Shown here in pieces: positions 45,655 through 62,975 of a DNA stretch of 64,000 nucleotides; the first letter of the stretch is position 1, and each line of letters begins with the position of its first letter. This DNA is from Leptolyngbya sp. SIO1E4. Lineage in GTDB: Bacteria; Cyanobacteriota; Cyanobacteriia; Phormidesmidales; Phormidesmidaceae. The translations under genes were made by a program, and so were the position numbers. Under the pieces are notes generated by a model that was not told the DNA's origin, did no database searches, and saw only the letters and a program-made list of their open reading frames with translations. The stretch is from the NCBI GenBank assembly GCA_010672825.2, contig JAAHFU020000005.1, forward strand, positions 434,001 to 498,000, written 5' to 3'.

Positions 45655-45698
45655 AACGTTACGCTTCTTACCCCCCACTCTCGCACGCTCCCTCTCTC

Positions 45699-47292: not shown

Positions 47293-47563
47293 ATCATTGG
47301 CTTTCCAAGAACGGGTGGCTGCCAAGATTCAAGCCGACCAGCCAGGAACTGCGATCGCCCTTTACCGAGAAATGATCGAAGCTGCGATCGACCGACGCGG
47401 GCGAGACAACTATCGCAGGGCCACTCAGTATCTCCAAACCGTACAATACCTCTATGAGCAACTGCAGCAGCAAGATACGTGCCAACAGTACGTGCAGCAT
47501 CTGCGAACACAGCACAATAACTTACCTGCACTCAAGCAAAAACTCAGTAAGGCAGGGTTTTAG
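47285..47563 (+). CDS. small helical protein coupled to ABC importer operon
   Basis: 92 residues; ATG overlaps the ATPase stop by 8 bp. All-helical: ALYREMIEAAIDRRGRDNYR, RATQYLQTVQYLYEQLQQQ and YVQHLRTQHNNLPALKQKL. This resembles the C-terminal helical segment of SWIM zinc-finger proteins, without the zinc-binding part. It may be a stand-alone domain or a remnant. Coupling to the operon is clear; function is not. Confidence 0.65.
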   Translation: MPKSLAFQERVAAKIQADQPGTAIALYREMIEAAIDRRGRDNYRRATQYLQTVQYLYEQLQQQDTCQQYVQHLRTQHNNLPALKQKLSKAGF

Positions 47564-47723
47564 GATTTTTACCGCGATTTACATTCGGATAAAGGACATC
47601 CCAAACCTCCCAGGGCAGCTCATCAATCTTCTGAGACATAGGCATTCCAAATGTCGAGATACTGTTTTTGAAAGGTCAGCCAGGTATCCCGTTCGATTGC
47701 GAGATCATTCGAGCGGATAACAT
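47564..47723. other. short gap with weak minus-strand frames
   Basis: Two small minus-strand frames overlap here: MNVIRSNDLAIERDTWLTFQ (ends YVSED) and MSQKIDELPWEVWDVLYPNV. Neither is recognisable. They are downstream of the nitrile-hydratase accessory gene and may be noise or a tiny gene. Confidence 0.3.
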
Positions 47724-48056
47724 TCATTGATGATGGTCAGTTTCTCGCTCGCGAATCAGATCGGCGATTTTTTGATGAATCGCCTGGGCATCAAGCAGTC
47801 CTTTATCAATCAACAGCTTTTCGCAGGCATCGACCCAACGCTCGTAATAGGTGCGAGTATCGTTAGCATCTGATTCTGCTAGGGCAATTTCTTGAGTGAA
47901 CTGGTCAACCCATTCGGCCCAGCTATAGTGGCGATCGCTCGCCAGTTGATTCACGATGGCAAAGGCTGTCGCCTCCCAAGGCGCTTGAAAAACGGGCTCT
48001 GGTGAAGCGTCGTTGAGGCCATCCGTCAGAGGCTCTTGAGAAAATTGCAGAGACAT
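47724..48056 (-). CDS. nitrile hydratase accessory protein (P14K/P15K-like)
   Basis: 110 residues. FQAPWEATAFAIVNQLASDR, YSWAEWVDQFTQEI, YYERWVDACEKLLIDKGLL is the standard pattern of NHase/SCNase maturation proteins, which are related to the beta-subunit N-terminus and deliver cobalt-loaded, oxidised alpha subunit by subunit swapping. Last gene of the minus-strand set alpha, beta-N, beta-C, accessory; 13 bp after the beta-C stop. Likely co-transcribed. Confidence 0.88.
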   Translation of the reverse strand: MSLQFSQEPLTDGLNDASPEPVFQAPWEATAFAIVNQLASDRHYSWAEWVDQFTQEIALAESDANDTRTYYERWVDACEKLLIDKGLLDAQAIHQKIADLIRERETDHHQ

Positions 48057-48069
48057 GAATCAGCACCGC

Positions 48070-48438
48070 TTAAGGAACTTCAAGATGATCGTCAAACAGG
48101 TCAAGATAGAGGGCGTCTTGGTTCGGGGCATCAGGCCCCCAGAGTTCTTGAGCAGCAAAGCGGATGCTGTAGACGTGCTGAGGCGATGTACTCAATCGCT
48201 GACCCAACGTGTCCGGAAAAACATAAACGCCATGCGCTCTCACTACTGTGCCGACTTTACCGCGCACGTAGCGGGGCAGGCGCGTGTAGGTTTTGGGATG
48301 CATCACCTTAGCGCGCACTAAATCCCCCACCTGAAATTGCGGGGGCAAGTCGCTCGCTACCTGACAGTTTGCCCCCTGCTGCAAAAGAGCTTGGGCGGCA
48401 GCGGCAGACATACATTCATTAGGCGGTTCAATGGTCAT
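48070..48438 (-). CDS. nitrile hydratase/thiocyanate hydrolase beta subunit, C-terminal half as separate protein
   Basis: 122 residues. SH3-like beta barrel of NHase beta: FQVGDLVRAKVMHPKTYTRL, PRYVRGKVGTVVRAHGVYVF, then AQELWG and a C-terminal acidic strand LYLDLFDDHLEV. The two Arg residues of TRLPRYVRGK correspond to residues that hydrogen-bond the oxidised cysteines in the active site. It begins 4 bp inside the beta-N gene (ATGA). In ordinary NHase both halves are one chain; separate halves are the layout of thiocyanate hydrolase. Confidence 0.9.
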   Translation of the reverse strand: MTIEPPNECMSAAAAQALLQQGANCQVASDLPPQFQVGDLVRAKVMHPKTYTRLPRYVRGKVGTVVRAHGVYVFPDTLGQRLSTSPQHVYSIRFAAQELWGPDAPNQDALYLDLFDDHLEVP

Positions 48439-48791
48439 CGCAGGCTTTCAGGAGAATCATCCACAGCGGCTTGGGGTCGCTCAGTCTCAGTGCTCTGGCG
48501 CAAGTGCGCAATCCGGGCTTCAATTTCGTCAGGCGAGAGTAAATCATGCTCTGCCAGTAAAAGTTCTAAGGCGTAGAGCCACCGTTCGTAATAGCTAGAG
48601 CTGAGGTATTGTCCTGGCGGGATGCGTTCTGAGGCATGGCGGGTTTCGTCCACTGGGAAGTAATTGATAAAGGTCGCAAAGCTCATCGCAAACACTTTTG
48701 CTTCCCAGTCGCTATGAAAAACCGGCTCATTTTCCTCAATGGGAATCGGGCCTAAACCCTGCATGCCGCCCATGTCGTGGGGACCATTCAT
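48435..48791 (-). CDS. nitrile hydratase/thiocyanate hydrolase beta subunit, N-terminal half as separate protein
   Basis: 118 residues starting MNGPHDMGGMQG, the canonical NHase beta start (MNGxHDxGG). Then PVFHSDWEAKVFAMSFATF and RHASERIPPGQYLSSSYYER, the helical segment that wraps the alpha subunit. It ends with a variable charged tail; the SH3 half is encoded by the next gene. 12 bp after the alpha stop. Split beta is typical of thiocyanate hydrolase (scn) and a minority of NHases. Confidence 0.9.
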   Translation of the reverse strand: MNGPHDMGGMQGLGPIPIEENEPVFHSDWEAKVFAMSFATFINYFPVDETRHASERIPPGQYLSSSYYERWLYALELLLAEHDLLSPDEIEARIAHLRQSTETERPQAAVDDSPESLR

Positions 48792-48803
48792 CGCGATCGC
48801 CTC

Positions 48804-49424
48804 CTAAGCCGCTACTGGCGTGGGGGCACTGGGAGGCAGCACCTTCGCCGTCCCGATCATGGCGTTGCGGGTCACCAAGGCGGCCAACTCTGATTCCGAC
48901 AGGGTCTCGGTGCCACTCGGTCGCTCTGGTAGCACCAGATATCGTAAATCGGCATTGCTGTCCCACACGTGAACTTCCACTGTGTCTGGCAGCTCTAACC
49001 CAAACTCCGCGAGCACGCTGCGGGGTTCAATCACCGCCCGCGAGCGATATGCAAACGACTTATACCAGGTGGGGGGCAACCCCAAAATGGCCCAGGGATA
49101 GCAGGAGCAGAGGGTACACACCACCAGGTTATGCACTTCCGGCGTGTTTTCGACCACCACCATGTGCTCGCTCGAAAACCCCGTCAAACCCAACTCAGCG
49201 ATCGCGGCGGTGCCGTCGGCTAATAGTCGCTGCTTAAAGTCCGCATCAACCCAAGCTTTGGCCACAATTTGAGCCCCAATGTGCGGCCCCACCGTGTGTT
49301 CATAGTGCTCAATGATGACATCCAGAGCAGCGGGGTCAACAATGCCTTTCTCAATCAGCAGAGACTCGATCGCCTTTACCCGCAAGGCAATCTCGGCTTC
49401 AGAACCGTGGTGAGAAGCTGTCAT
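48804..49424 (-). CDS. cobalt-type nitrile hydratase/thiocyanate hydrolase alpha subunit (set 1)
   Basis: 206 residues from ATG 49424; a longer frame from 49538 has poor coding character. Claw motif [10 protein letters not shown] with C103, C106 and C108, of which the last two are normally oxidised and bind the metal; Thr after the first Cys marks the cobalt type. Other family blocks: [56 protein letters not shown] and [19 protein letters not shown]. Cytosolic enzyme that hydrates nitriles to amides or hydrolyses thiocyanate. First gene of a minus-strand operon. The promoter region is shared with the cysteine hydrolase on the other strand. Confidence 0.93.
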
Positions 49425-49607
49425 AGGGGTATCCACACAAGCTTTTTTGACTTCACAAATACGCTGCCGAACTCTCGATACCCAGTGGAATCGTTGGTGA
49501 ATTAAAAGGATTGTACCAAGATTAGCCTCAAACCCCAACTCTGCGATCGTAATGTTGCCGTACTTAAACCAATAAAGATACAGTTCAATTAATTAATCGA
49601 GGCGTTT

Positions 49608-50288
49608 ATGGTTTCCGCTAAAACGTACAGTCATCCCTTCCATTTGCCCTTGAAAAAAACGGCTTTACTGGTCATCGATATGCAAAATGATTTTTGCCAC
49701 CCCGATGGCTTCAACGGCAGCGAATTAGCCCTTGACTTGACTGGAGTCCGAGCCATCATTCCCTCGATTCAAACCCTACTTACCTGGGCTCGGCAAACTA
49801 AAATTCAAGTCATTTTTACCCGCGAAAGTCACGCACCAGACTTATCAGATCTCACTTCTAGTAAGCAAACCCGGTATGCCAATGCGGGCTCACCCATTGG
49901 TCAACGCGGCAAAATGGGGCGGTTTTTAGTCCGAGGTGAACCCGGGGCGGCCCTGATTGATGAGCTACAGCCTCAACCCCAAGAATGGCAGTTGGACAAG
50001 CCTGCTCACTCCTGCTTTGTGGCGACTGACCTTGATCAAAGATTACGCATCGCCCACATTACCCATTTGCTGATCGCTGGGGTCACAACGGAATGCTGTG
50101 TGCTAGCGACCTATCGTCATGCCAGCGATCTTGGCTATTACTGCCTTCTTCTAGAAGATTGCTGCGCAGCCTTCAATCCCCAAGATCATGCCGCCACCGT
50201 CCACATTTTGCAGTCAGAGGGCGGCGTTTTGGGATGGGTAAGTGATTCTCCGCAGCTCTTTGAGTCGTTATCGGTTCTTCAGCCCTGA
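49608..50288 (+). CDS. cysteine hydrolase, isochorismatase family (possible amidase)
   Basis: 226 residues. Triad: D24 in ALLVIDMQNDF, K131 in QLDKPAHSCF, and C164 in GVTTECCVLAT. This family includes nicotinamidase, N-carbamoylsarcosine amidase, biuret/ureidoacrylate hydrolases and isochorismatase; an amidase role is the most common. Divergent from nitrile hydratase set 1 with a 180-bp gap, and followed by an ABC importer. It could hydrolyse the amide made by the hydratase and release ammonium, since no classical amidase-signature gene is nearby. Substrate unproven. Confidence 0.88.
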   Translation: MVSAKTYSHPFHLPLKKTALLVIDMQNDFCHPDGFNGSELALDLTGVRAIIPSIQTLLTWARQTKIQVIFTRESHAPDLSDLTSSKQTRYANAGSPIGQRGKMGRFLVRGEPGAALIDELQPQPQEWQLDKPAHSCFVATDLDQRLRIAHITHLLIAGVTTECCVLATYRHASDLGYYCLLLEDCCAAFNPQDHAATVHILQSEGGVLGWVSDSPQLFESLSVLQP

Positions 50289-50583
50289 AACCGTGAAGCT
50301 GCAAGGGGGCACAAGGCAACTCTGTGAAGTCATTGCGAATCGGCGTTGCCGCGATCGCGGCGCTTTCACCCGGCCCACTGCAATCCGGTCATCCGAAAAC
50401 ATGAATTCACTATTTCGCAAGATGCAAAGAGATTTATTGCTAGATCAGCAATAATCTATCCCTTCTTCTACTGAAACTGTGCTCTCAACTACAGCAGTTT
50501 CCCCTTTAGTCATCTACTGTCTAACCACGTCCCGCTTATTGTAGATGGCTCGCATTCGGTTGATTTCCTTGAGGTGAAGCGTC

Positions 50584-51648
50584 ATGCTCCAGACGTCCAA
50601 ATGGCTAAAACGGTTGTTGCCCCTGACTGCCAGTGTTTTTCTCGGAGTCGCCTGTGCCACACCCGAAGCCACTGAAGCACCGGCAGAGGCACCCGCAGCC
50701 GATGCCTCTGAGAGTAGTGACGCTTCCGAGGAGTTGATTCCGGTCAAGGCCGGGCATTTAGTCGCGTTGGATATGGCTCCATTATTCGTAGGGGTAGAAT
50801 CCGGCTGTTTTGTGGAGAATGGACTAGCCGTAGAAACCGTATTTTTTACGAATCCAGGGGATAACAATGCTGCCTTAGCAGGGGGGCAAATCGACTTTAG
50901 TACAAATCCCTTTACGCTTCCTTTCTTTGCTGCTAATAGCGGCGTGCCGATCAAGACGGTTGCTGCCGCAGGTGGGTGGGGAGTGATGCAGGTGATTATT
51001 AATAATGAATACGGGGTAGAATCGGTCGATGATTTAGTGACCTTTGTGTCAGATAATCCCGATACCAAACTCAAAATTGCGACCCTACGCGGCGATACTT
51101 TAGAGCTAATTTTGGTGGATGCTTTTGAGGCAGCAGGCGTTTCTCTCGACGCTTTTGAGATGGTCTATTTTGATGACCTGTTGGCCATGGTCGATGCCTT
51201 TCGAGTTGGGGAAGTCGATGTGTTGAGCCACATTAAGCCCTACACCACGCAATTTGTGGCGAGCGGTGAGGCGACGGTGCTGACCGACAATGCCGAAGTA
51301 TGGTCACCCACTACCCCTAATACCGTCGTCAGCGTCTTGGAGAATACCCTGGACGAGCGTCCTGAAGTGGTCGAGGCGTATATTGCTGGGTTGCAATGTG
51401 CCGCTGAAATTATTAATACTGACCCGGAGGCTGCGATCGCCCTGTTGACTGACGGTAACTATTACCGCGTTGAGGATGACGTGTTACTCACTGCATTTGA
51501 GACCCAGCCTTCCCCCATCACCTTTACCCCAGATTTAGAAGCGGTGCAAACCGTGGTCGATAAGATGGTAGAGCTGAAATACATCGAATCGGATGTCCCT
51601 GCCGCTGAGATTTTTAGCACCACCATCGTCCAAGACCTAGAGAAGTAA
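50584..51648 (+). CDS. nitrate/taurine/thiamine-precursor-type ABC substrate-binding lipoprotein
   Basis: 354 residues. Lipobox GVAC near residue 24-28, then an Ala/Glu-rich linker. NMT1/SsuA-like fold: VKAGHLVALDMAPLFVGVES, GCFVENGLAVETVFF, AALAGGQIDFSTNPF and DAFRVGEVDVLSHIKPYT. Proteins of this group bind small ions or pyrimidine precursors (sulfonate, nitrate, cyanate, HMP). ATG after GAGGTGAAG. Operon with a permease 1 bp after its stop and an ATPase. Located between the cysteine hydrolase and an Lrp gene, so probably serves the hydratase island. Confidence 0.9.
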   Translation: MLQTSKWLKRLLPLTASVFLGVACATPEATEAPAEAPAADASESSDASEELIPVKAGHLVALDMAPLFVGVESGCFVENGLAVETVFFTNPGDNNAALAGGQIDFSTNPFTLPFFAANSGVPIKTVAAAGGWGVMQVIINNEYGVESVDDLVTFVSDNPDTKLKIATLRGDTLELILVDAFEAAGVSLDAFEMVYFDDLLAMVDAFRVGEVDVLSHIKPYTTQFVASGEATVLTDNAEVWSPTTPNTVVSVLENTLDERPEVVEAYIAGLQCAAEIINTDPEAAIALLTDGNYYRVEDDVLLTAFETQPSPITFTPDLEAVQTVVDKMVELKYIESDVPAAEIFSTTIVQDLEK

Positions 51649-51649
51649 C

Positions 51650-52459
51650 ATGCCTCATTCTTCGCCGGGTGCCCCAGCTTGGCAGCCCTCCCTGCTAGCG
51701 ATCGCCTGTGGACTGTTGTCTTGCGGGGTTCTCGTCGCCATTTGGGAGGTGGCCGGCAGCAATCCGGCTAATCCCGTGACTCAGGTGTTGCCGCCGCCGT
51801 CACAGTTTTTGCCCGTTTTGTTTGAAAGTGACTTTCGAGTGGGTTTAGGGTCGCAATCGGCGTCCATTTATCAGTCGGTCACTGTGACGCTCATTCGCGT
51901 TTCCTTGGGCATGGCGATCGCCTTTGTGGGTTCCATTGCCTGTGGTCTGCTGATCAGCCTCTCCAAGTGGTCAGAGTTATTTATTCTGCCGATTCTGGGC
52001 TTGATGGCCCCGATCGCCCCCATCGCCTGGGTGCCCCTGGCGCTGGTTGTGTTTGGCGTTAGCAACCTGACAGCGGTTTTCATCGTGTTTATGGGGGTGT
52101 TTTTCACCCTGACCATTGCCACCGTAGCGGAAATCAAGCGGCTTCCCGACAATCTGTTAATGACTGCGCAAAATCTGGGCGGTGGCAGCTTTAATCGCTG
52201 GCGCTGGGTGATTATTCCAGCGGTTTTGCCGGGGGTGTTTACCCTGCTAAGACTCAATTTCATTGCAGCTTGGATGGCCGTTTTGGCGGCAGAAATGACT
52301 GGATTGCGTGATGGCCTGGGCACCGTGGTGATGACCGGGCGCAACCTGTTCAACAGCAATCTCATTTTGCTGGGGATTTGCATCATTGGCATCACCGGAT
52401 TTGCCGTCGACCGCCTGCTGCTGTTCATTCAGCGGAAGTTTTTCTGGTGGCAAGTGTAG
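51650..52459 (+). CDS. ABC importer permease (SsuC/TauC/NrtB type)
   Basis: 269 residues with about six membrane helices. The EAA loop is LLMTAQNLGGGSFNRWRWVI IPAVLPGV-like (NLGGGSFNRWRWVIIPAVLP) near residue 165-185. Starts 1 bp after the binding-protein stop. Forms the homodimeric channel with the ATPase that starts 2 bp after its own stop. An extended N-terminal hydrophobic segment is present. Confidence 0.9.
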   Translation: MPHSSPGAPAWQPSLLAIACGLLSCGVLVAIWEVAGSNPANPVTQVLPPPSQFLPVLFESDFRVGLGSQSASIYQSVTVTLIRVSLGMAIAFVGSIACGLLISLSKWSELFILPILGLMAPIAPIAWVPLALVVFGVSNLTAVFIVFMGVFFTLTIATVAEIKRLPDNLLMTAQNLGGGSFNRWRWVIIPAVLPGVFTLLRLNFIAAWMAVLAAEMTGLRDGLGTVVMTGRNLFNSNLILLGICIIGITGFAVDRLLLFIQRKFFWWQV

Positions 52460-52461
52460 GT

Positions 52462-53310
52462 ATGGAGCGTGATCATATTTCTCGGTCGCCCCTCTCAACT
52501 GGGCCTATACTTTCCTGCCAGCAGCTGACGAAAGGGTTTGCCAGCGGACGTCAAGCCACAACCGTTTTAGAGAACATCCATCTTGATGTAGCACCGGGGG
52601 ATTTTGTCACCATTTTGGGGCAATCGGGCGGTGGCAAATCGACCCTGCTGCAGCTTCTGGGCGGCTTCATTGCGCCTACTCAAGGGCAGGTGTTGTTTCA
52701 CGGCGTGCCGCTCAAGGGCATCACCCCTAAGATCGGCATGGTCTTTCAAGAAAACACGCTATATCCCTGGCTGACGGTGGAGCAAAACATTGGCTTTGGC
52801 TTCAAGGTCAGGGGCAAAAAGCGTCGCCAATATCAGCATCAGGTCAGCGATGTCCTGGAGCATGTAGGGCTGGCCCAATCTCGCACTCTGTACCCTCACC
52901 AGCTCTCTGGCGGGATGAAACAGCGGGTGTCGATCGCCCGTTCCATTGCTGTTCAACCCGATGTGTTGCTGTTAGATGAACCCTTTTCGGCGTTAGACAT
53001 TCAACTCCGGAGGCGGTTACAAGGCTTTTTATCCACGATTTGGCAAGACACCGCAACCACGATGGTGCTGGTCACCCACAACGTCGAAGAAGCGATCTTA
53101 CTCGGCCAAAAACTGCTGGTGATTGGCGACAAACCCGGTCGCATTATTGAAACAGTCGATATTGCAGCAGCTCAGTTTCGCGATCGCTACGACCCGCAAT
53201 TTTTAGCGCTGCAGCGCCATTTAGAAACCGTCATTGAAACCGATGCTCAGACCCAGACCTCACTCCACAGGCCCTTTGTGGAGCCCCCTCAAGTCCTTGA
53301 TCCAACCTGA
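52462..53310 (+). CDS. ABC importer ATPase (SsuB/TauB/NrtD type)
   Basis: 282 residues from ATG 52462, directly after the permease. Walker A GQSGGGKSTLLQLLGGF near 50, Q-loop MVFQENTLYPWLTVEQN, signature LSGGMKQRVSIARSI near 150, Walker B LLLDEPFSALD, H-loop VTHNVEEA. The C-terminal 40 residues (IIETVDIAAAQFRDRYDPQF) are typical for sulfonate/nitrate transporters. Completes the first taurine-type importer. Confidence 0.92.
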   Translation: MERDHISRSPLSTGPILSCQQLTKGFASGRQATTVLENIHLDVAPGDFVTILGQSGGGKSTLLQLLGGFIAPTQGQVLFHGVPLKGITPKIGMVFQENTLYPWLTVEQNIGFGFKVRGKKRRQYQHQVSDVLEHVGLAQSRTLYPHQLSGGMKQRVSIARSIAVQPDVLLLDEPFSALDIQLRRRLQGFLSTIWQDTATTMVLVTHNVEEAILLGQKLLVIGDKPGRIIETVDIAAAQFRDRYDPQFLALQRHLETVIETDAQTQTSLHRPFVEPPQVLDPT

Positions 53311-53364
53311 ACAACCTTAATGTGAGAGTCATCCGACAGTCATCCTATCCCCAGTTTGTTGGCG

Positions 53365-53859
53365 TCAAGGCTGTACTCGGGCTGGGTATTGCGCCTTATG
53401 AATTTTGAGAATGGTTCGGGAATTCAGCCGCTTCACGTCTGGATGACTTTTGAGGAAATTAATAAACGTCAGTAGATCTTGATTGTCTTTGTAAATGTAT
53501 TCCAGCATGAGATTTAACTCCCCCGTGACCGAGGCAATGTAGCTAATATTTTCCATCGCCATCAGCTGATTGAGGCTGGCTTCTAAAAAGGATGGCTGCA
53601 CTTCTAGTTCTAGATAGGCCACATTTTCATGTTTGACTTTACCCGTATTGATAAAGGCACTAATAGAAATAATCGCTTCATCAAGTAACCGTTTAACTCG
53701 ATAGCGAATCGTTGCCTCAGGCGAGTCGATAGAGCGGGCAATGTCGCTGTAGGCAATCCGACCATTTTTTTGTAAAAGCTCAATAATTTTTAGATCTAAT
53801 TGATCTATTTGATATCCTTCAATGGCCTGGATCTCTGGGTCAGGAGGAGAGATTTGCAT
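53365..53859 (-). CDS. Lrp/AsnC family transcriptional regulator
   Basis: 164 residues. N-terminal HTH IDQLDLKIIELLQKNGRIAY with SDIARSIDSPEATIRYRVKR near residue 18-60, then the RAM/AsnC ligand-binding fold (VAYLELEVQPSFLEASLNQL; MENISYIASVTGELNLMLEY). Lrp/AsnC proteins sense amino acids or nitrogen compounds as octamers. Located between the two importers and divergent from the second, so it is the best candidate regulator of the hydratase island. Convergent with the first importer. Confidence 0.92.
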   Translation of the reverse strand: MQISPPDPEIQAIEGYQIDQLDLKIIELLQKNGRIAYSDIARSIDSPEATIRYRVKRLLDEAIISISAFINTGKVKHENVAYLELEVQPSFLEASLNQLMAMENISYIASVTGELNLMLEYIYKDNQDLLTFINFLKSHPDVKRLNSRTILKIHKAQYPARVQP

Positions 53860-54289
53860 AGTTCTATCGTTAGGCGATCGCAGTCATAAATATCCATACT
53901 ACAAGCCCTGGTAGCATGACTCATTCATTGCCGGCATTTATGGATTCCGTATAATCTAGACCAGATTCAACGATATCAGCAAAAAAATGTAGCCATCTCT
54001 ACGGTTATGAGTAAAGACAAGCAGTATTCTTGTCCTGATAGAGAGGTTGGCTTGGTGTAGCAACCGCGATCGACCATGAGCTGAATGATGTCTATTTGTT
54101 TGGGGTAAGTGGACTTTCTGATGATGGACTGAGGTTGGTTATCGAAATCTTGCCGATCTCATTTGATCAGAGTGTGCAGCGGTGCAGCGGTTCGTCTGCG
54201 TTGAATAAACTCAGCAGGCTGATTTGTCAGCACTTTGCGTGGTTGCCTTAGCATCCGACTTTTTATTCTGGATAGCGTTTTCAACTAAT
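53860..54289. other. divergent control region between Lrp gene and second importer
   Basis: 430 bp without a gene. It should contain the promoters of the Lrp gene and of the importer-hydratase operon. I see no clear palindrome that can be named an Lrp site. Confidence 0.45.
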
Positions 54290-55090
54290 ATGAAGGTCAA
54301 TTATTTGGAGCATCAAAAAGGTGTAGATTCTCACCGAGTTGGCTTGGATATCTCTGTTTCAGGCTTGACTAAGTACCTGAACGGTAAGCCACTCTATGAG
54401 GATTTTTATCTTCATATTCCCAGCCAAAAGATTACCTGCATTTTTGGTCCCAACGGTTGTGGTAAGTCAACTTTACTGAACATGATTTCGGGCCTAATAC
54501 CAGTCGACTCAGGACAACTTTTCTTTGGTGGCAAGCCCCGCTCTGAAGTCAACCTCGGCTATGTTTTTCAGAATTACCGAGACGCTCTTTTTCCTTGGCT
54601 AAGAGCAATTCAAAACATTGAATATCCCCTTTTGAGTGCAGGCTTTTCTCGCCTCAAGCGACGCGCTCGTGTCGAAGAGTTGATTCATCAATTTAATGTG
54701 GGCTTTGATCTGTCCCGTTACCCCTATGAGCTATCTGGTGGTCAACAGCAGTTAGTCTCCATCATGCGTGCCCTGGCCACCCAACCCAATGTGTTATTCC
54801 TCGATGAACCATTCTCGGCATTAGATTACGAGGCGACGTTAGCTATTCGAGACAAATTGCAGGATGTGTTTGTCGAAACGGGGGTCACAATCGTCATGAT
54901 TTCTCACGACTTAGAAGAGGCTGTCTATCTAGCCGACCATATTTTATTGCTGACCAAGCGACCTACCCGGATTGCTGAAAGCGTTGTTTTTAATGCTAGC
55001 CGTCCTCGCACATTAGCAACCTTGTCAGACCCAGAGTTTGTGCGGATCAAAGCCCATAGTCTGGATGTCTTTCGGCGTGAGGCGAGTTAA
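54290..55090 (+). CDS. ABC importer ATPase (taurine/nitrate type), second system
   Basis: 266 residues from ATG 54290; the longer reading from 54224 adds 22 hydrophobic residues that do not fit an ATPase. Walker A GPNGCGKSTLLNMISGL near 62, Q-loop VFQNYRDALFPWLRAIQN, signature LSGGQQQLVSIMRAL, Walker B VLFLDEPFSALDYE, H-loop VMISHDLEEAVYLA. First gene of the operon ATPase, permease, binding protein, beta, alpha. Different in sequence from the ATPase at 52462. Confidence 0.92.
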   Translation: MKVNYLEHQKGVDSHRVGLDISVSGLTKYLNGKPLYEDFYLHIPSQKITCIFGPNGCGKSTLLNMISGLIPVDSGQLFFGGKPRSEVNLGYVFQNYRDALFPWLRAIQNIEYPLLSAGFSRLKRRARVEELIHQFNVGFDLSRYPYELSGGQQQLVSIMRALATQPNVLFLDEPFSALDYEATLAIRDKLQDVFVETGVTIVMISHDLEEAVYLADHILLLTKRPTRIAESVVFNASRPRTLATLSDPEFVRIKAHSLDVFRREAS

Positions 55091-55092
55091 AG

Positions 55093-55875: not shown

Positions 55876-55880
55876 AAATT

Positions 55881-56963
55881 ATGAGTGCTCAAAACTTTAG
55901 TCGTCGCCAGTTTGTTAAGTATGGTGCTCTGACCGTAGGGACAACCGCGATCGCGGCCTGTACTGGTAGTTCAGAAGTTGAAGAAACGACTGCCCCCAGT
56001 GAAGATACATCGACTACAGAGACTGGCGGTGGAAGTCCTGAAGTCATTGTCAAAAAAGAAAAGGTCGTGGCCTCTTGGCTGCCCATCATGCAAACAACAG
56101 CTTATTACGTGGCGCTCGAAGAAGGTCTGTTTGAGCAGGCTGATATTGAAATTGAGTCCGTCAAATTTGAAAACCCTAACCAGATTATTGATTCCCTGGT
56201 TTCGGGTAGGGCTGATTTTGGCCCTCCAGGTGCCGCTGCTGGAATTACCGTATTAGCTGAGGCTAAGACGCCAGGCACATTCAAAGTGTTTGGGCTGCAA
56301 GGCGGTGGCATCGAAAGCGACTTTATTAATGACGGACTGATTGTTAAACCGGATTCGACCATTGCCACATTTGAAGACTTACAGGGGAAAAAAGTAGGCA
56401 CGATTCCCGGTATTCAGTGGAAGACGATTCTGTCTTACATCTTGAAGAAAAATGGATTAGAGCCGGGTAATAACGTCACGATTGAGCAAATGGCAGTGGG
56501 CTTACATTTGCCCTCAGTTGTCTCAGGAGCAGTCGATGCCACCTTGTCGTTGGAACCCACCGGGTCAATCGCCGAAGCGACGCAACAGGCTAAACGGGCT
56601 CTGGTAAATCCCGTTTCCATGTTTATTTCCGATCCCTTCTATTCAGGGGCAGCGGTGCTGACGTCTAAGTTTTTGACCGATCGCCCGGAGACGGCCAGAA
56701 AAATCGTACAGGTAATTGATGAAGCCACCAAAATTGCCAACAGTGACTTCGATAAGGTACGTCCCTACATTTCTCAATACACTGCCCTTGAACCCGACCA
56801 AGCTTCCTATGTGGCTCAGCCACGACTCAGAGGTTTCGATGATTTAGATGACATCGATTTAGACTCTTACCAAAAATTTATTGATGTCTTCTATGAGGAA
56901 GAGGTTTTAGAGCAAGCCATGGCGGTTAAAGCATTAATGTTGGATAAAGCAGAGCTAGGTTAA
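55881..56963 (+). CDS. Tat-exported ABC substrate-binding lipoprotein (NMT1/THI5-like)
   Basis: 360 residues from ATG 55881. N-terminus has a twin-arginine motif SRRQFVK, hydrophobic segment and lipobox AIAAC, so it is probably a Tat-dependent lipoprotein, which suggests folding or cofactor loading before export. Body: WLPIMQTTAYYVALEEGLFE, SVKFENPNQIIDSLVSGRAD, GPPGAAAGITVLAEAKTPGT and a substrate pocket typical of NMT1/SsuA-like proteins. Its stop overlaps the start of the nitrile-hydratase beta gene (TAATG), the strongest link here between importer and enzyme. Confidence 0.92.
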   Translation: MSAQNFSRRQFVKYGALTVGTTAIAACTGSSEVEETTAPSEDTSTTETGGGSPEVIVKKEKVVASWLPIMQTTAYYVALEEGLFEQADIEIESVKFENPNQIIDSLVSGRADFGPPGAAAGITVLAEAKTPGTFKVFGLQGGGIESDFINDGLIVKPDSTIATFEDLQGKKVGTIPGIQWKTILSYILKKNGLEPGNNVTIEQMAVGLHLPSVVSGAVDATLSLEPTGSIAEATQQAKRALVNPVSMFISDPFYSGAAVLTSKFLTDRPETARKIVQVIDEATKIANSDFDKVRPYISQYTALEPDQASYVAQPRLRGFDDLDDIDLDSYQKFIDVFYEEEVLEQAMAVKALMLDKAELG

Positions 56964-57676
56964 TGTTTGAGGTTCCACCGAGCACCTATCATCAACCGAT
57001 ACCGCATGACCCTGATGACCAGTCCCCGATCATCAGGAAAGAGGGGCATATCAGTTTTTATGAAAAGCAGATTGTGGCGCTGCATAATCTGATGAGAGCA
57101 AAAAAGCAATTGCCTAGTTTTGACTCAGTGCGACGTGCTGCTGAAGAAGTAGACGGTCAGTTTGTTGCTCAAGCCTTTTCCGACGAGATCCCTGATTTTC
57201 TCAAGCATCGCCTACCTGACTACGGAGAGAGGAGAGTTCTAGCGGTTGAAAGAGTCTTACAAGATCTCAATTACGTTTCTAGGGAGGAATTAAAACAGCA
57301 GTTTACAGCGCTTGACGATACTGACGCTTGCCAATTTTCTGCCAAAGTTGCCTATCAGCCTGAGACGAATGAAGCGACCTACGCAATCCCGCAGTATCAA
57401 GTTGGTGACTTAGTTCAAGTGATTCCCCATGACAAAGTTGGACACATTAGAACGCCTGTTTACTTGCGGCAGAAAAAAGGGATCATTCAAGGCCTACAGG
57501 GGCAGTATTTGAACCCAGAAGAGTTAGCGCATTTTAAGTCTCCAGTTTTTCGATTGCCACTTTACTTAGTTGAGTTTGAAATGCTGGAAGTCTGGGGCGA
57601 TCGCTGCCCTATCAAGAGTCTGAAAGACAAGCTGCGAGTCGAAATTTATGAGCCCTGGCTGTCACCACTGCCATAG
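56963..57676 (+). CDS. nitrile hydratase beta subunit, set 2 (atypical N-terminus)
   Basis: 237 residues. C-terminal SH3-like half is clear: YQVGDLVQVIPHDKVGHIRT, PVYLRQKKGIIQGLQGQYLN, VFRLPLYLVEFEMLEVWGD and LRVEIYEPWLSPLP. The second active-site Arg block reads YLRQKKG where others have RGK/RGR. The N-terminal half lacks MNGxHDxGG; instead two similar helical blocks appear, FYEKQIVALHNLM near 33 and YGERRVLAVERVLQDLNYVS near 90, each like the FYEKW-ALE helix of beta/accessory proteins. Translationally coupled to the Tat binding protein. Confidence 0.87.
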   Translation: MFEVPPSTYHQPIPHDPDDQSPIIRKEGHISFYEKQIVALHNLMRAKKQLPSFDSVRRAAEEVDGQFVAQAFSDEIPDFLKHRLPDYGERRVLAVERVLQDLNYVSREELKQQFTALDDTDACQFSAKVAYQPETNEATYAIPQYQVGDLVQVIPHDKVGHIRTPVYLRQKKGIIQGLQGQYLNPEELAHFKSPVFRLPLYLVEFEMLEVWGDRCPIKSLKDKLRVEIYEPWLSPLP

Positions 57677-57711
57677 CCTGACTTTTGCCCAGAGATCGAG
57701 GTCTACCGTTG

Positions 57712-58434
57712 ATGTCTAACCATGCCCCTCAAAATGATGAGCCCTTATCCAAGCCCACTGGTTCGACCGAGGCACATCACCATAGTCATGAACCTATTAC
57801 CGATGATGAAGCGTATTGGGCACAACGCACCAGAGTGATCCAAACGCTATTGGAAGCAAAAGGCTTTTTTACTGCGGATGAAGTCCGACGTGAAATTGAA
57901 CGCGAAGATTCTGTGACCCCCATGTTGGGAGCACGTTTAGTCGCCCGCGCTTGGGTTGATGCTGAGTTTAAGCAACGGCTCTTGGCCGATGGCAAAGCGG
58001 CCTGTCGAGAAATGGACATTGACACGGCTGAAATCAAACGGCTGGAGGCGGTTGAAAATACTCCGTCGGTTCATCACGTTGTTGTTTGTACCCTTTGTTC
58101 TTGCTATCCTCGAGCGATTTTGGGTTACCATCCACCTTCTTGGTATAAGAGTACGGCCTACCGCAATCAAGTTGTCGTTGATCCCCGGCGAGTTTTAGAA
58201 GAAGAGTTTGGCACGGTCATCCCCGATGCGGTTGAGGTTCGAGTGATGGATAGTAATGCCGATACTCGTTATCTCGTGATTCCTCTGAGACCTCAAGGAA
58301 CAGAAAACTGGAGCGAGGAGACCCTACGTCAACTTGTCACACGCGACAGTATGATCGGCGTTGCGGTGGCCGAGTCGCCTTTGTTCTTAAATAAGAGATC
58401 TGACAAAGCACAAGCATCGGAGATCATTTACTGA
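57712..58434 (+). CDS. cobalt-type nitrile hydratase alpha subunit (set 2)
   Basis: 240 residues from ATG 57712 (35 bp after the beta stop). Claw [10 protein letters not shown] with C126, C129 and C131; Thr indicates cobalt. VENTPSVHHVVVCTL, YHPPSWYKSTAYRNQVVVDP and VMDSNADTRYLVIPLRP are family blocks. The N-terminal about 30 residues are extra and include His-rich AHHHSHEP (H22-H26), absent from the other two alpha subunits; it may bind metal. C-terminal extension of about 20 polar residues. No accessory gene of the P14K type follows; DUF1097 and COG0523 genes come next. Confidence 0.93.
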   Translation: MSNHAPQNDEPLSKPTGSTEAHHHSHEPITDDEAYWAQRTRVIQTLLEAKGFFTADEVRREIEREDSVTPMLGARLVARAWVDAEFKQRLLADGKAACREMDIDTAEIKRLEAVENTPSVHHVVVCTLCSCYPRAILGYHPPSWYKSTAYRNQVVVDPRRVLEEEFGTVIPDAVEVRVMDSNADTRYLVIPLRPQGTENWSEETLRQLVTRDSMIGVAVAESPLFLNKRSDKAQASEIIY

Positions 58435-58836
58435 AAAGCGAAGTTAATATTCACAACCTTCATTCAATTTTGAGGAAAATGGTTGCCCGTTACTGTGCCT
58501 TTCTTTAGGTAGAATCATTCTCCAAAGAAGATCTTAATTTCTATCCTTAAAGGTGACAGTGATTCCATCTCATATTGTGTCTGCTTACGACAAAAACAAG
58601 AAAGTTTAACTGCATGCAGAAAATGCATAAATTGACGCTTATAATAACAATTAAATTATTTCAGTGGCTCTGGTTTTTTGGCTCTGCATGAGTACAAATC
58701 AAGGTTAGAGCTTGGGTCTTGAAGTATTTTTTACTCCGGTAAATTTGAGCTGCTTTTGGGCTGAGGTCTGTCTAGATTCATGGTCTTAATAATCGAGTAA
58801 TAGAGTGGCCAGTATCCCTGTAAAGAGGTGTGTTTT
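58435..58836. other. AT-rich gap with probable promoter
   Basis: 400 bp, no gene. TTGACG near 58634 is followed about 17 bp later by ATTATT, a plausible sigma-70 promoter for the downstream genes. ACTGCATGCAGAAAATGCATAAA near 58610 is palindrome-like. Confidence 0.4.
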
Positions 58837-59340
58837 ATGAAGCAATCAGAAGCGTTGACGATTAGTATTGGTGTCTTAGGTGGGGTTGATGTTTTTCTGA
58901 CGGCGACGGTGATTCCGGTACCCGTTTGGGTGACGTTTACAGCTTGGGCTTCGTTCTTTATCGTCGGCGGTGGCACCCGCGGGTTCGTGAAATCGGTTGC
59001 CTGTAACATTACCGGCATCATCATCGCGGCCTTGTCGCTCTTGGCCATTGGGCTCATTGGTAATACGCCGCTAGTGGCGGCCATTTGTGTGGGCATTGGC
59101 AGTGCCGCCATGGTGCAGGCCTCCAAACTGCCCTTTACCCACGGCATCACCCCCGCGATTGTTTGGGGCTTCTCCCAGACGGTGGGCACGGTTGCCGTCA
59201 CTGGGCTGCCCGTCACGGCCCCGTTGCCCAACAATCCCGTGTTGATTGCGATCGCGGCCATGATCTTGGGCGCCATTTTCGGCTATCTTTCCGAGGCTTG
59301 GGGTAATGCCATGACGTCGTCGCTACAGCCAGAAAGGTAA
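58837..59340 (+). CDS. DUF1097 family membrane protein
   Basis: 167 residues from ATG 58837 (AGAGG eight bases upstream). Five hydrophobic segments, about residues 5-25, 30-50, 55-80, 85-105 and 135-155. VGGGTRGFVKSVACNITGII in the middle. DUF1097 proteins are predicted inner-membrane proteins of unknown function, some near transport or urea-type genes. Between hydratase sets 2 and 3 and just before the COG0523 gene, so a small-molecule or metal channel is a possible role; not shown. Confidence 0.85.
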   Translation: MKQSEALTISIGVLGGVDVFLTATVIPVPVWVTFTAWASFFIVGGGTRGFVKSVACNITGIIIAALSLLAIGLIGNTPLVAAICVGIGSAAMVQASKLPFTHGITPAIVWGFSQTVGTVAVTGLPVTAPLPNNPVLIAIAAMILGAIFGYLSEAWGNAMTSSLQPER

Positions 59341-59394
59341 AGGTTTCGCAGCCGTTCAGCTTTCAGCCGCTAGTTCAGGGAGTTTCCAATACTT

Positions 59395-60378
59395 ATGGCA
59401 TTGATTCAAAAAGTTCCAGTAACCGTCCTTACAGGCTATTTAGGGGCGGGCAAAACCACGTTACTCAACCGCATCTTGACTGAAAACCACGGTCAACGTG
59501 TTGCTGTCATTGTCAATGAATTTGGTGAGGTCGGGATTGACCATCAGTTAGTCATTGATGCCGACGAAGAAATTTTTGAGATGAACAACGGCTGCATCTG
59601 CTGTACTGTTCGCGGCGATCTCATCCGCATTATTGGCAATCTCATGGCCCAGGGTGAGCCCTTTGACCATCTCGTGATTGAAACGACGGGCTTGGCCGAT
59701 CCGGCACCGGTGATTCAATCCTTTTTCACCGATGAGGTGATGGCGCGGCAAACGCAGCTTGATGCGGTGGTGACGGTGGTGGATGCCAAGCACGTCGAAG
59801 CCCATTGGGATAGCCATGAAGTGCAGGAGCAAGTCGCATTTGCCGATGTGCTCCTGCTTAATAAAACGGATTTGATTGCGCCCGAACAGTTGCAGGCTTT
59901 GGAAGCAAAAGTGCGGGGCATTAATGCGATCGCCACTATCCACACTACTCAAAACTGCGAGATTAGCCTGGACAAGCTGCTGGGCGTGCAGGCCTTTGAC
60001 CTGAAGAATGCCCTGAGCATTGATCCGCAATTTTTAGAAGACGATGCCCATGAGCATGATGACTCGGTGTATTCCGTCGCGATTACCGCCACCGGCACCG
60101 TGGATAGTGACAAACTTAATCGCTGGCTGTATCAGCTAGTGCAGGCCAAAGGGGCCGACATCTTTCGCATGAAAGGTATTTTAGATATCGATCATGCCGA
60201 CCGGCGCTTTGTGTTTCAGGGCGTGCACATGACCTTAGATGGTCGCCCTGGCAAACCCTGGCTGCCCAGTGAGCAGCGCCATAGTGAGCTGGTTTTTATT
60301 GGCCGCAATCTGGATGAAGATGAGCTGCGCCAAGGCTTCCAAGCCTGTCTGATGCCGGTGTATGCCGACGTGACCTGA
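59395..60378 (+). CDS. COG0523 (CobW/P47K) metallochaperone GTPase, nitrile-hydratase activator candidate
   Basis: 327 residues. G3E GTPase: Walker [10 protein letters not shown] (14-22), metal site CICC (67-70), [16 protein letters not shown] near 157, and C-terminal CobW_C domain ending [16 protein letters not shown] His/Asp-rich patch EDDAHEHDD lies near 215. COG0523 members insert metals; the Fe-type nitrile-hydratase activator P47K is one, and CobW handles cobalt. Position directly before set 3 beta suggests cobalt delivery to these hydratases. Zinc-responsive COG0523 roles remain possible. Confidence 0.92.
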
Positions 60379-60427
60379 CCGGTTTTGGTCGGGCCTTGAT
60401 TGACCTTGTTGAAAGTGACCTAATCTG

Positions 60428-61183
60428 ATGAAACTACAGCACTATCTGGGGGGTTTAGAAAACTTAGACCCCGTAAATTTTGAAACCCAGGTTTTTGTCG
60501 AACCGTGGGAACAGCGCATTTTTGGCATTCATACCGCGATGATGGCCCTCAGCAATCACCTGGGGGAGTCGCTACCCGATTACGACATCGAGCAGGTGCC
60601 CACAGAGTTCAAAAGCTTTTGGACCTGGGGCCATTTGCGCATGGGGGCCGAAGGCATGCACCCCTTTGAATATTTTCAGCTGCGTTATTACGAAAAGTGG
60701 TTAGGCGGTATCTCCGGTTTCTTTGTGGAGGAAGGCTACATCACCCAAGAAGAATTGGACCAGCGAACAGCGGAAATTTTGGCCGATGAGGCCAAAGCCC
60801 AAGCGCCGCTGCCCAGCGGCGGTGACGCCGCCATTGATAAGCAAGTGGTGAACTACTTGACCAAAGGGGATTCGCCGATGCGACCCCTGCCCGCCGCCCC
60901 GAGGTTTAGCGTGGGCGATCGCGTGCGGGTCAAAAATGTCGTCTCCGCAGACCACACGCGCCTGCCTGGCCACATCCGCGGCCGCGTGGCAGAAATCGTC
61001 AAAGTCTATGACGAGGCCTACACTTACTTTTTTGAGACCACTGATGGCTTAGGCACACCGATGCCGATTTACAGCATCGCCATCAAGGCCACCGACATCT
61101 GGGAGACTTCCCTGGCGGATGCCAATTCGATCTATTACAACGACGTTTTTGAAGTGTACCTGGAGTATTTGGAAGACGGCTAG
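60428..61183 (+). CDS. nitrile hydratase beta subunit (set 3, full length)
   Basis: 251 residues with both halves in one chain. N-terminal MKLQHYLGGLENLDPVNFET, EPWEQRIFGIHTAMMALSNH, FKSFWTWGHLRMGAEGMHPF and FQLRYYEKWLGGISGF; C-terminal SH3 half with FSVGDRVRVKNVVSADHTRL, PGHIRGRVAEIVKVYDEAYT, YSIAIKATDIWE and DVFEVYLEYLEDG. The Arg pair TRLPGHIRGR matches the active-site Arg residues. 50 bp after the COG0523 gene and 148 bp before alpha. Confidence 0.92.
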   Translation: MKLQHYLGGLENLDPVNFETQVFVEPWEQRIFGIHTAMMALSNHLGESLPDYDIEQVPTEFKSFWTWGHLRMGAEGMHPFEYFQLRYYEKWLGGISGFFVEEGYITQEELDQRTAEILADEAKAQAPLPSGGDAAIDKQVVNYLTKGDSPMRPLPAAPRFSVGDRVRVKNVVSADHTRLPGHIRGRVAEIVKVYDEAYTYFFETTDGLGTPMPIYSIAIKATDIWETSLADANSIYYNDVFEVYLEYLEDG

Positions 61184-61213
61184 GGCCAAGCCTGATCACC
61201 TGTGAACACGTTA

Positions 61214-61267
61214 GTCAGGGCCTGCCACCGCTTCGAGCCCGCGGTTGCCCAGGTGAAATCGCCTGAC
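61214..61267 (+). other. possible hairpin between set 3 beta and alpha
   Basis: GTCAGG (61214-61219) can pair with CCTGAC (61262-61267), with an inner ACCGC/GCGGT stem. The arms are short, so an attenuator or RNA-processing element is only a possibility. Confidence 0.3.
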
Positions 61268-61331
61268 CATTGCCAAAGTCATTCTTTTGCCTAACGAATT
61301 CCTTTGAACCTTACACCGAGAGGAGCGTGTA

Positions 61332-61955
61332 ATGCCCAGTAACTATCCAGGATTTGGCTATCCTGCCGATCGAGAAACCGTCAGTGCTGCCAAGGTCAAA
61401 GCCCTAGAATCGCTGCTGATTGAGAAGGGCGTGATTACCAGCAATACGGTCGATACCGTGCTCAGCCATTTTGAGACCAAGATGGGGCCGTTTAACGGGG
61501 CCAAGCTGGTGGCGCGGGCGTGGGTAGACCCCGAATTCAAAGAGTTGCTAGTAGCCGACTGCAATGCCGCCTGCCAGCAAATGGATTTTCCTGAAGGCAT
61601 GTCCGGGGCTGAAGGGGAGCACATGCGCGTGGCCGAAAACACGCCAGAAGTCCATAACGTTATTGTCTGTACCCTGTGTTCCTGTTATCCCTGGCCCACC
61701 CTGGGGCTGCCCCCCTACTGGTACAAAGACCCGACGTTTCGGGCGCGAGTCACGCGGGAACCGCGCGTCGTTTTGTCAGAGTTTGGGGTAGAGCTGGACG
61801 ATTCGGTCGAGGTGCGCCTGTGGGATACCAGCGGTCAGATTCGCTGGTGGGTGCTGCCCATGCGGCCTGCGGGCACTGAAGGCATGAGTGAGGAAGAGCT
61901 CGCGGCTCTGCTCACGCCGGAGGCCATGATGGGCGTGGCGACGGTCAAGGTTTAA
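61332..61955 (+). CDS. cobalt-type nitrile hydratase alpha subunit (set 3)
   Basis: 207 residues, ATG after GAGAGGAG. Claw [10 protein letters not shown] with C113, C116 and C118; cobalt-type Thr. [56 protein letters not shown] and VRLWDTSGQIRWWVLPMRPA follow. The last block has TSGQIRW where sets 1 and 2 have SNADLRY/SNADTRY, which lines the substrate pocket, so specificity may differ. Followed by the accessory gene. Confidence 0.94.
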   Translation: MPSNYPGFGYPADRETVSAAKVKALESLLIEKGVITSNTVDTVLSHFETKMGPFNGAKLVARAWVDPEFKELLVADCNAACQQMDFPEGMSGAEGEHMRVAENTPEVHNVIVCTLCSCYPWPTLGLPPYWYKDPTFRARVTREPRVVLSEFGVELDDSVEVRLWDTSGQIRWWVLPMRPAGTEGMSEEELAALLTPEAMMGVATVKV

Positions 61956-62017
61956 GCCCCTTGCCTGCTGCCCCCTGACAACGACCCTCCAATTCAGTTC
62001 TCCATTTGTCTCTGGTC

Positions 62018-62371
62018 ATGTTTACTAAATTTGAACACTTTGCCGCCACCAGTTTGATGGGCTCTCCTGAAGAGGCACCCCCCCGTCAGGATGGACATCT
62101 CCAGTTCGATCGCGAGTGGGAAAAGCTGGCCTTTGGGGTAGCGATCGCCCTTTCTAAGCAGGGCTATTTTGAATGGGAAGACTTTCGTCAAACGCTGATC
62201 GCTACCATCGCCGATTGGGAAGCAACCCACGAGCTAGATGACCCCGAGTGGGACTATTACCAGTGCTGGCTGGCCGCCCTTGAAAAATTGGTGGTCGATG
62301 CTGAGGTTGTGGATGCTAAGGAATGGCAAACCCTTGTGGTTCAACTGCTGGATTGCAAAGCCACGACCTGA
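62018..62371 (+). CDS. nitrile hydratase accessory protein (P14K-like, set 3)
   Basis: 117 residues from ATG 62018 (a TTG four codons upstream is less likely). FDREWEKLAFGVAIALSKQG, YFEWEDFRQTLIATIADWEA and YYQCWLAALEKLVVDAEVV give the pattern of NHase activator subunits that swap with beta to deliver metal. Completes the classic order beta, alpha, accessory of cobalt nitrile hydratases. Only weakly similar to the accessory protein of set 1. Confidence 0.88.
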   Translation: MFTKFEHFAATSLMGSPEEAPPRQDGHLQFDREWEKLAFGVAIALSKQGYFEWEDFRQTLIATIADWEATHELDDPEWDYYQCWLAALEKLVVDAEVVDAKEWQTLVVQLLDCKATT

Positions 62372-62507
62372 CCATCGCCCTGCTCTCAGCTAACAGCTCA
62401 CTTTTGTCGACAAATTCTGCATTCCGTTGTGCCAGGCGGGCTTGTGATTTTCTGCATCCTTGTTCAGTTTCTACTCTTCTATTCATCCCTCAATCGGGAG
62501 TCTTCTC

Positions 62508-62975
62508 ATGATTCGTCAGCTTCAATCCCTATATTCATGCCCATTTTCGCCAATGCTAAAAGCAGCAGCAGCACGATCTCTCCGACCGATTAAAACCAGC
62601 TTGATCGCGCTCTTCGGGGCTTTATGCTTGCTCTCGGTTGCCTTGCCAGCGATGGCCCACCACCCCTTTGGGGCATGACACCCGATAACTGGGTGCAGGG
62701 ATTTTTATCTGGTCTGGGGCACCCCGTCATTGGCCCTGACCACCTTGTTTTCACGATTATCATGGGCCTGTTAGCGACTCAACTTAAGCCCCATTGGCTC
62801 GTTCCTGCAGCGTTTCTGGCGGCGGCGTTGGTCGGTACCGACCTCCACTTGATGGCCCTCGATCTACCCGCTCCAGAGTTTGTGATTTCGCTGTCGGTTT
62901 TAGTGTTTGGCGTGCTGGCCGTTTTTGGGCAAAAACTCAACCTAGTTGCAGTGGTGGCCCTCGCGGTAATAAGGT
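62508..62975 (+). pseudogene. HupE/UreJ-type Ni/Co permease gene, frameshifted and cut by IS remnant
   Basis: Starts at ATG 62508 with CGGGAG upstream; signal-like segment LIALFGALCLLSVALPAMA, then HHPFG and a premature TGA. One missing G in the run at 62670-62673 would restore HHPFGGMTPDNWVQGF. The second frame continues with the family motif GLGHPVIGPDH and two helices, then breaks near 62970 where ISL3-type transposase sequence starts on the other strand. HupE proteins carry nickel or cobalt, which fits the cobalt hydratases. The missing base could be an assembly error, but the 3' loss could not. Confidence 0.85.

Follow-up and report, generated by a model that had tools for sequence, protein, structure and literature searches.

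An island of three nitrile hydratases, two ABC importers and NtcA-type promoters in Leptolyngbya sp. SIO1E4

A 64,000-nucleotide stretch of the cyanobacterium Leptolyngbya sp. SIO1E4 (contig JAAHFU020000005.1, positions 434,001 to 498,000; the whole stretch is called the window and coordinates are counted from its first letter) carries an island at 47724-62371. In this island three cobalt-type nitrile hydratases (NHases) are grouped with two importers of the taurine family of ATP-binding cassette (ABC) systems, an isochorismatase-like hydrolase (IHL1), an AsnC/Lrp-family regulator, a DUF1097 membrane protein, a COG0523 GTPase and two accessory proteins. The island probably serves the import, hydration and deamidation of nitriles as a nitrogen source under the control of nitrogen starvation through NtcA. 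A dedicated import-and-hydrate nitrogen pathway is supported because these genes stay coupled in different genera, with importer 1, NHase and IHL linked even in different phyla, and because NtcA-type promoters precede the importer and metal-chaperone operons.

An earlier note, made by a model from the sequence of the window, had named most of these genes in this order, and profile searches recovered them as listed, except that the hupE-like gene proved not to be intact. The genes for two p14K-type accessory proteins (47724-48056 and 62006-62371) were absent from that list. The host genome comprises 8.2 Mb in 12 contigs, and the three NHase alphas of the island are its sole alpha matches.

Three cobalt-type nitrile hydratases of separate ancestry

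Set 1 lies on the reverse strand. It consists of the accessory gene acc1 (47724-48056; TIGR03889, 68.9 bits, cut-off 46), a beta subunit split into separate genes for the C-terminal half (beta-C, 48070-48438; PF02211, 108 bits) and the N-terminal half (beta-N, 48435-48791; PF21006, 120 bits), and alpha1 (48804-49424, longest open reading frame (ORF) to 49538). Set 2, on the forward strand, combines an atypical beta (56963-57676) with alpha2 (57712-58434). Set 3, also on the forward strand, has a full-length beta (60428-61183; TIGR03888, 204.5 bits, cut-off 152.2), alpha3 (61332-61955) and the accessory gene acc3 (62006-62371; TIGR03889, 77.1 bits). Likely starts internal to the first-pass ORFs were assigned to alpha1 (49424, reverse strand), the two importer ATPases (52462 and 54290), the second substrate-binding protein (55881) and alpha2 (57712); all were checked to be ATG.

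All three alphas matched PF02979 (297, 257 and 285 bits) and contain the metal claw CTLCSC, whose threonine we take as the mark of a Co-type enzyme. Each alpha has its own type of beta, as the earlier note had described. Pfam recognized the C domain only in the set 2 beta, whose N-terminal domain is atypical. In an alignment, two columns that we assume to be active-site residues of NHase were occupied by arginine in beta1, beta2 and beta3. Both columns also aligned between beta3 and the set 2 beta of Cf. Phormidesmis (21% identity over 238 residues, E 3e-8). The predicted structure of beta2 was too poor to use (mean pLDDT 49.7).

The NHase model TIGR01323 (cut-off 249.85) was passed by alpha1 (299.9 bits) and alpha3 (291.2 bits). 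Alpha2 scored 236.6 bits, and two set 2 relatives scored 230.7 and 237.8 bits. As the set 2 alphas scanned, from the window and two relatives, all fell below the cut-off, set 2 appears to be an outlying subfamily. The island shares alpha and beta families, claw, p14K-type accessory and the beta arginine pair with Co-type NHases of known structure (e.g. 4ob1, 1v29, 2dpp, 3qxe). It differs from them in uniting three lineages, one with a split and one with an atypical beta, and in the coupling of its sets to ABC importers, an IHL and a COG0523 GTPase.

Thiocyanate had been considered as a substrate in the earlier note, and thiocyanate hydrolase belongs to the same superfamily. With the model of its gamma subunit (TIGR03887, cut-off 291.45) the three alphas reached 188.1, 204.5 and 188.4 bits, at least 86 bits too few in every case. 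That one of the sets is a thiocyanate hydrolase or a cyanide-hydrating enzyme is very unlikely; formamidase, which bears on cyanide, is discussed below.

Identity to alpha1 is 51% for alpha2 and 54% for alpha3. In a tree of 71 alphas, calculated by a quick short-search maximum-likelihood method that gave a long-branch warning, and from which rows of less than 150 amino acids had been removed (among them a partial alpha3 of genome G386), the set 2 alphas formed one clade (8 rows, support 99). Set 1 alphas (17 rows) joined the alpha of a Gloeocapsopsis plasmid (support 94, not starred) and set 3 alphas (28 rows) that of genome G005 from another family (support 100). Set 2 further clustered (support 99) with eight alphas including those of Planktothrix and rhizobial plasmids, in which the betas are annotated as two SH3-like pieces. 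Judged from these sequences, the three alphas represent separate old lineages, and the recent near-identical copies that the earlier note had allowed for did not appear.

The gene blocks recur in other cyanobacteria

Among 386 cyanobacteria sampled across the phylum, 16 had a PF02979 match at E 0.001, many of them short, and a full-length beta2 was found in the window's own genome only. A scan of named genomes with alpha2 as query returned six relatives (74-89% identity). Within the order, 31 of 63 genomes had an alpha match, the host included, and 17 contained a set 1 alpha with at least 76% identity. The surrounding loci were surveyed in 34 stretches from these genomes and two from genome G170.

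Two blocks were recognized. In the first, acc1, beta-C, beta-N and alpha1 face IHL1 (49608-50288, forward strand), followed by the genes of importer 1 on the same strand, namely the NMT1/SsuA-family substrate-binding protein SBP1 (50584-51648), the permease perm1 (51650-52459) and the ATPase ATP1 (52462-53310), all identified by family profiles, and by the AsnC/Lrp gene on the reverse strand (53365-53859; PF13404, PF01037). IHL1 and SBP1 adjoin alpha1 in 16 of 17 loci, the window counted, genome G445 being the exception. The second block comprises the gene of the COG0523/CobW-family GTPase (59395-60378, forward strand; PF02492, PF07683), usually the DUF1097 gene (58828-59340, forward strand; PF06496, 102.7 bits), beta3, alpha3, acc3 and often HupE. 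Of the 28 alpha3 loci that were fetched, 26 have CobW beside set 3, and the other two end at contig edges.

Importer 2, on the forward strand, is encoded by ATP2 (54290-55090), perm2 (55093-55875) and SBP2 (55881-56963; NMT1/SsuA family), again assigned by profile matches. Set 2 adjoins it in five of eight genomes. In three others (G407, G408 and G416) importer 2 lies beside set 1 without set 2, together with a 553-residue protein made of two CN-hydrolase (nitrilase superfamily) halves, the second of which lacks catalytic residues as judged by eye. Because importer 2 is coupled to either an NHase or a nitrilase-family enzyme, its cargo may be a nitrile or an amide.

All three sets occur together in 3 of 63 genomes: the window's, G442 (taken as Cf. 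Phormidesmis LEGE 11477) and G411 (taken as Nodosilinea P-1105). Outside the order, the set 1 block also lies on a plasmid of Gloeocapsopsis dulcis (Chroococcales), where the isochorismatase is a different one (29% identical). AsnC is followed there by an ATP2 homologue of reduced length (73% over 192 residues), and the stretch yielded no perm2 or SBP2 of the importer 2 kind. Since the same blocks recur in other genera and on this plasmid, the grouping is more than chance. The neighbourhood survey, which the earlier note had named as a check, showed that the neighbours remain linked in relatives.

NtcA-type promoters precede both importers

A conserved block in the alignment of the gap next to AsnC prompted a promoter test. 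The pattern was applied afterwards but is identical to the published one: a canonical NtcA promoter has, according to the available text of PMC3898017, a GTAN8TAC site near -41.5 and a TAN3T -10 box. Two variants were counted in gaps of at least 60 bases upstream of a gene, namely GT-N9-TAC followed after 21-24 bases by TAN3T (pattern 1), and GTN10AC followed after exactly 22 bases by TAN3T (pattern 2).

Pattern 1 was present upstream of SBP1 in 16 of 16 loci (0.18 expected from Markov shuffles) and of CobW in 16 of 19 (0.23 expected), as well as before DUF1097 (3/6) and ATP2 (2/6). With pattern 2 the counts were 16/16 for SBP1, 14/19 for CobW, 3/6 for DUF1097 and 6/6 for ATP2 (0.14 expected). 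As a background, gaps upstream of non-cluster ORFs of at least 100 codons were taken from the same loci, a set that may include ORFs other than genes; pattern 1 occurred in 2 and pattern 2 in 4 of these 152 gaps. No NtcA-type pattern was detected upstream of alpha1, AsnC, beta3 or acc3, and the IHL gene gave 1/18 with pattern 2. In the SBP1 rows the letters of the spacer vary widely while the boxes are constant. The Gloeocapsopsis plasmid has an NtcA-type layout before SBP1 as well.

Over the 64 kb of the window, the two strands together contain four instances of the layout in its TAC form with 22 bases, and two of these lie exactly before the importers: GTGCTCTCAACTAC-N22-TACTGT at 50479-50520 before importer 1 and GTAGCCATCTCTAC-N22-TATTCT at 53989-54030 before importer 2, both on the forward strand. 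Each importer thus has a GTAN8TAC-type site and a TAN3T box at class II spacing, which on sequence grounds makes both candidate members of the NtcA regulon. The genome encodes NtcA (385 bits, cut-off 245). TGTN10ACA was found in the window at chance frequency, and it is only the full promoter architecture at orthologous places that is informative. An Rfam scan gave no match in the window at gathering scores, and none at 47000-64000 at E up to 5.

Related cassettes on plasmids of other bacteria

Searching 72,556 plasmids with SBP1 returned 13 records, with 72% identity in Gloeocapsopsis, 63% in Stutzerimonas and 57% in two Klebsiella wastewater plasmids, the rest being below 30%. Over 9.7 kb the sequences of the two Klebsiella records do not differ, so that they count as one. 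On the Stutzerimonas plasmid p1_PM101005 the genes run LysR, SBP, permease, ATPase, nthB, nthA, accessory, IHL and HupE (alpha 63% identical). The Klebsiella plasmid pRHBSTW-00973_5 carries importer 2 (53-58%), a CN-hydrolase (58% to the cyanobacterial 553-residue protein), importer 1, nthB, nthA, accessory, IHL and LysR. Both cassettes resemble the island in uniting an SBP1-type importer, NHase, accessory and IHL in one run, and the Klebsiella cassette also shares importer 2. They differ from it in an undivided beta and in LysR or sigma-54 regulator genes without AsnC; in Klebsiella, importer 2 is paired with the tandem CN-hydrolase and not with set 2. The presence of these cassettes on plasmids suggests transfer of one and the same unit among distantly related bacteria.

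Phages gave no match with SBP1 as query, nor did E. coli genomes with the Klebsiella cassette as query in a search confined to near matches, and no beta2 match was found on plasmids at E 1e-5. The other plasmid NHase loci that were opened showed different partners (aquaporin and CbtAB; HoxN-type transporters; aldoxime dehydratase and amidase; amidase, cytosine permease and another ABC system) or none evident. Between the sigma-54 activator gene and the importer 2 operon of the Klebsiella plasmid, a sigma-54 promoter-like site with one mismatch was noticed (L128:7375-7390); over the whole locus, such sites with up to two mismatches occur at chance level.

A Planktothrix plasmid (L032) encodes an NHase of the wider set 2 group with a split beta among asnB, TauD-type dioxygenase and methyltransferase genes, perhaps a natural-product locus. 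It could be taken to mean that the NHases of the island inactivate nitrile toxins or tailor metabolites and that the importers serve other nutrients. The annotation of that 20 kb stretch includes no taurine-type importer. For the island, the joint occurrence of importers and NHases in different phyla and the NtcA-type promoters of the importers speak against such a role, which we regard as quite improbable.

A putative pathway from nitriles to ammonia

In the pathway that we favour, NtcA would turn the island on when nitrogen is short. The two taurine-family ABC systems would bring in a pair of small nitriles, or else a nitrile and an amide, and the three Co-type NHases would hydrate the C-N triple bond to yield amides. 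Set 1 would work with importer 1 and set 2 with importer 2, while set 3 may be a general enzyme carried with its own metal chaperone; from the two importers and the alternative downstream enzymes, such a divided substrate range is plausible. IHL1 would cleave the set 1 amide to acid and ammonia, and other amides may pass to amidases elsewhere in the genome, where a formamidase and an amidase-like gene are present. Cobalt would reach the enzymes through the COG0523 GTPase and both p14K-type accessory proteins, and the AsnC protein probably contributes control specific to the substrate. The sequences show the gene content, the conserved linkage, the separate ancestry and the promoter architecture; from these we infer what the enzymes do, which way the importers transport, that NtcA binds and what the substrates are. 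Of the nitrogen pathway that the earlier note had envisaged, nitrile import and hydration thus gained from the conserved coupling and the promoters; thiocyanate as a substrate found no support.

Several observations weigh against this reading. Alpha2 remains under the NHase cut-off, and set 2 occurs without importer 2 in three of eight genomes. The promoter rows come from related genomes and cannot be counted as independent; among the six ATP2 rows, three are almost the same, and the background includes doubtful ORFs. Plain GTAN8TAC occurs in the window at chance frequency. Searches for the layout found none upstream of CobW in G005 or of the NHase genes in G312, G014 and Planktothrix, nor any within the AsnC/ATP2 gap of Gloeocapsopsis. 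In the window none was seen ahead of DUF1097/CobW or in the alpha1/IHL gap either, so that transcription of set 1 and set 3 there would have to start from a different promoter or come from read-through.

A nitrogen-responsive NHase of a cyanobacterium is already in print. In Arthrospira PCC 8005, NHase alpha and beta were up under nitrogen limitation together with formamidase and cyanase, according to the accessible portion of PMC4509649. Like the island, Arthrospira/Limnospira PCC 8005 has a cyanobacterial NHase with an accessory gene; it differs in a single nthA/nthB pair, and the available text of both reports mentions neither importers nor an IHL (PMC4509649, PMC8400943). New here are the NtcA-type promoters before importer 1, CobW and importer 2. 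In searches of open-access literature on nitrile hydratase, no title or beginning of an abstract described such an island or a nitrile importer, which is weak evidence. In the accessible parts of published work, nitrile use by cyanobacteria is deduced from NHase genes; here the system recurs as a whole, with promoters for nitrogen control, candidate importers and an amidase to match, which makes substrate, transporter and control directly testable.

The IHL1 hydrolase and candidate substrates

IHL1 (PF00857, 148 bits) is closest to the biuret (BiuH) and triuret (TrtA) hydrolases, with which it shares the isochorismatase-like family and the Asp/Lys/Cys triad (PMC7948467, as far as available). 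The catalytic residues are complete in the window and in 15 of 16 IHL1 rows; the row of genome G387, where the ORF starts late, is the one that falls short. IHL1 differs from both hydrolases in substrate-binding residues: Lys132 and Gln202 (TrtA numbering) are His and Glu in 16 of 16 rows, and the IHLs of Stutzerimonas and Klebsiella have Thr and Glu at these positions. According to the accessible text of PMC7948467, alanine at the equivalent of the Lys abolished BiuH activity and alanine at that of the Gln cost more than 90% of it, while TrtA Q202E lost more than 95% of its triuret activity and its slight biuret activity rose tenfold.

These relationships raise the question whether IHL1 is a biuret or triuret hydrolase in a ureide pathway, with the NHases as a side activity. 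Besides the family assignment and the tenfold gain in Q202E, such a role is favoured by two relatives that have, near set 2, allophanate hydrolase and a gene closer to BiuH (263.8 and 259 bits, yet short of 370, the cut-off of the BiuH model NF050097). IHL1 itself attained 213.9 bits with this model, the substrate Lys and Gln are replaced throughout, and the window's genome gave no allophanate hydrolase match at E 1e-80 or better (12 of 63 genomes of the order have one over the cut-off). We therefore consider a biuret pathway highly improbable. Near set 2 in Leptothoe kymatousa (L050/L100) and genome G439 (L101), a BiuH-like hydrolase, an M20 hydrolase, allophanate hydrolase and a third taurine-type ABC system were seen, and Leptothoe has urease genes beside set 3.

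Cyanide would be hydrated to formamide, and the formamidase gene directly 3' of set 2 in Nodosilinea P-1105 would fit this conversion. This adjacency was found in one of eight set 2 genomes, the neighbours in the other seven being incompletely scanned, and it says little because formamidase is near-universal in the order (46 of 63 genomes over the cut-off). As general evidence, formamidase as a partner of set 2 was dropped for the same reason. Separately, an isochorismatase-like gene with 42-44% identity to IHL1 directly adjoins a formamidase gene in four genomes (G445:C43, G443:C129, G438:C2 and G399:C5).

Within the favoured nitrile pathway, a more specific variant is unlikely though conceivable: SBP1 and SBP2 would be dedicated nitrile importers, and importer 1, NHase and IHL would form a mobile cross-phylum pathway for a nitrogen-rich cyano compound such as cyanoguanidine. 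Its hydration would give guanylurea, which IHL1 might cleave to guanidine, probably degraded in genomes with guanidine riboswitches. The exchange of Gln for Glu in IHL1 would suit a cationic guanidino group and fits this variant. Guanylurea hydrolase belongs to the same family as IHL1, as stated in the available part of PMC9800807. Guanidine-I riboswitches were detected in 49 of 63 genomes of the order, the window's included, and in 17/17 genomes with set 1 against 32/46 without it (Fisher 0.013, uncorrected for kinship and incomplete genomes).

Metal genes and flanking features

The COG0523 GTPase contains a CICC motif and is the steady neighbour of set 3 across the order. It resembles Nha3, the COG0523 activator of an Fe-type NHase, as a CXCC GTPase adjoining an NHase (PMC2770081, as far as available). 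Nha3 partners Fe-type enzymes, whereas the partner of the island GTPase has the Co-type claw, which sets the two apart. Co-type NHases seem to need no GTPase, according to the accessible text of PMC9164220, and the pairing seen here bears on the loading of cobalt enzymes. For the DUF1097 protein, structure prediction was too poor to use (mean pLDDT 39.8). In three genomes an FGE-sulfatase-like protein is encoded at or near the CobW/NHase genes (L100:10969-11931, L095:5633-6577 and L078:7611-8579); the first has a Pfam match and the other two cluster with it.

The hupE/ureJ-like metal transporter gene (62601-62972, forward strand), which the earlier note had listed with the island, turned out to be frame-broken and truncated. 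Relatives align to its ORF (62624-63088) in two frames at the start, and homology is clear to about 62970, with a weak continuation to 63037 against one of two relatives. The ORF that comes next, on the reverse strand (62942-63226), is short and on visual inspection resembles a transposase gene. At 41413-47292, immediately to the left of set 1, genes for a Nik/Opp-family ABC importer specify a binding protein, two permeases and two ATPases, all with scores under the equivalog cut-offs, and a distant member of this family (32-41%) also lies left of set 1 in genome G396 (L084).

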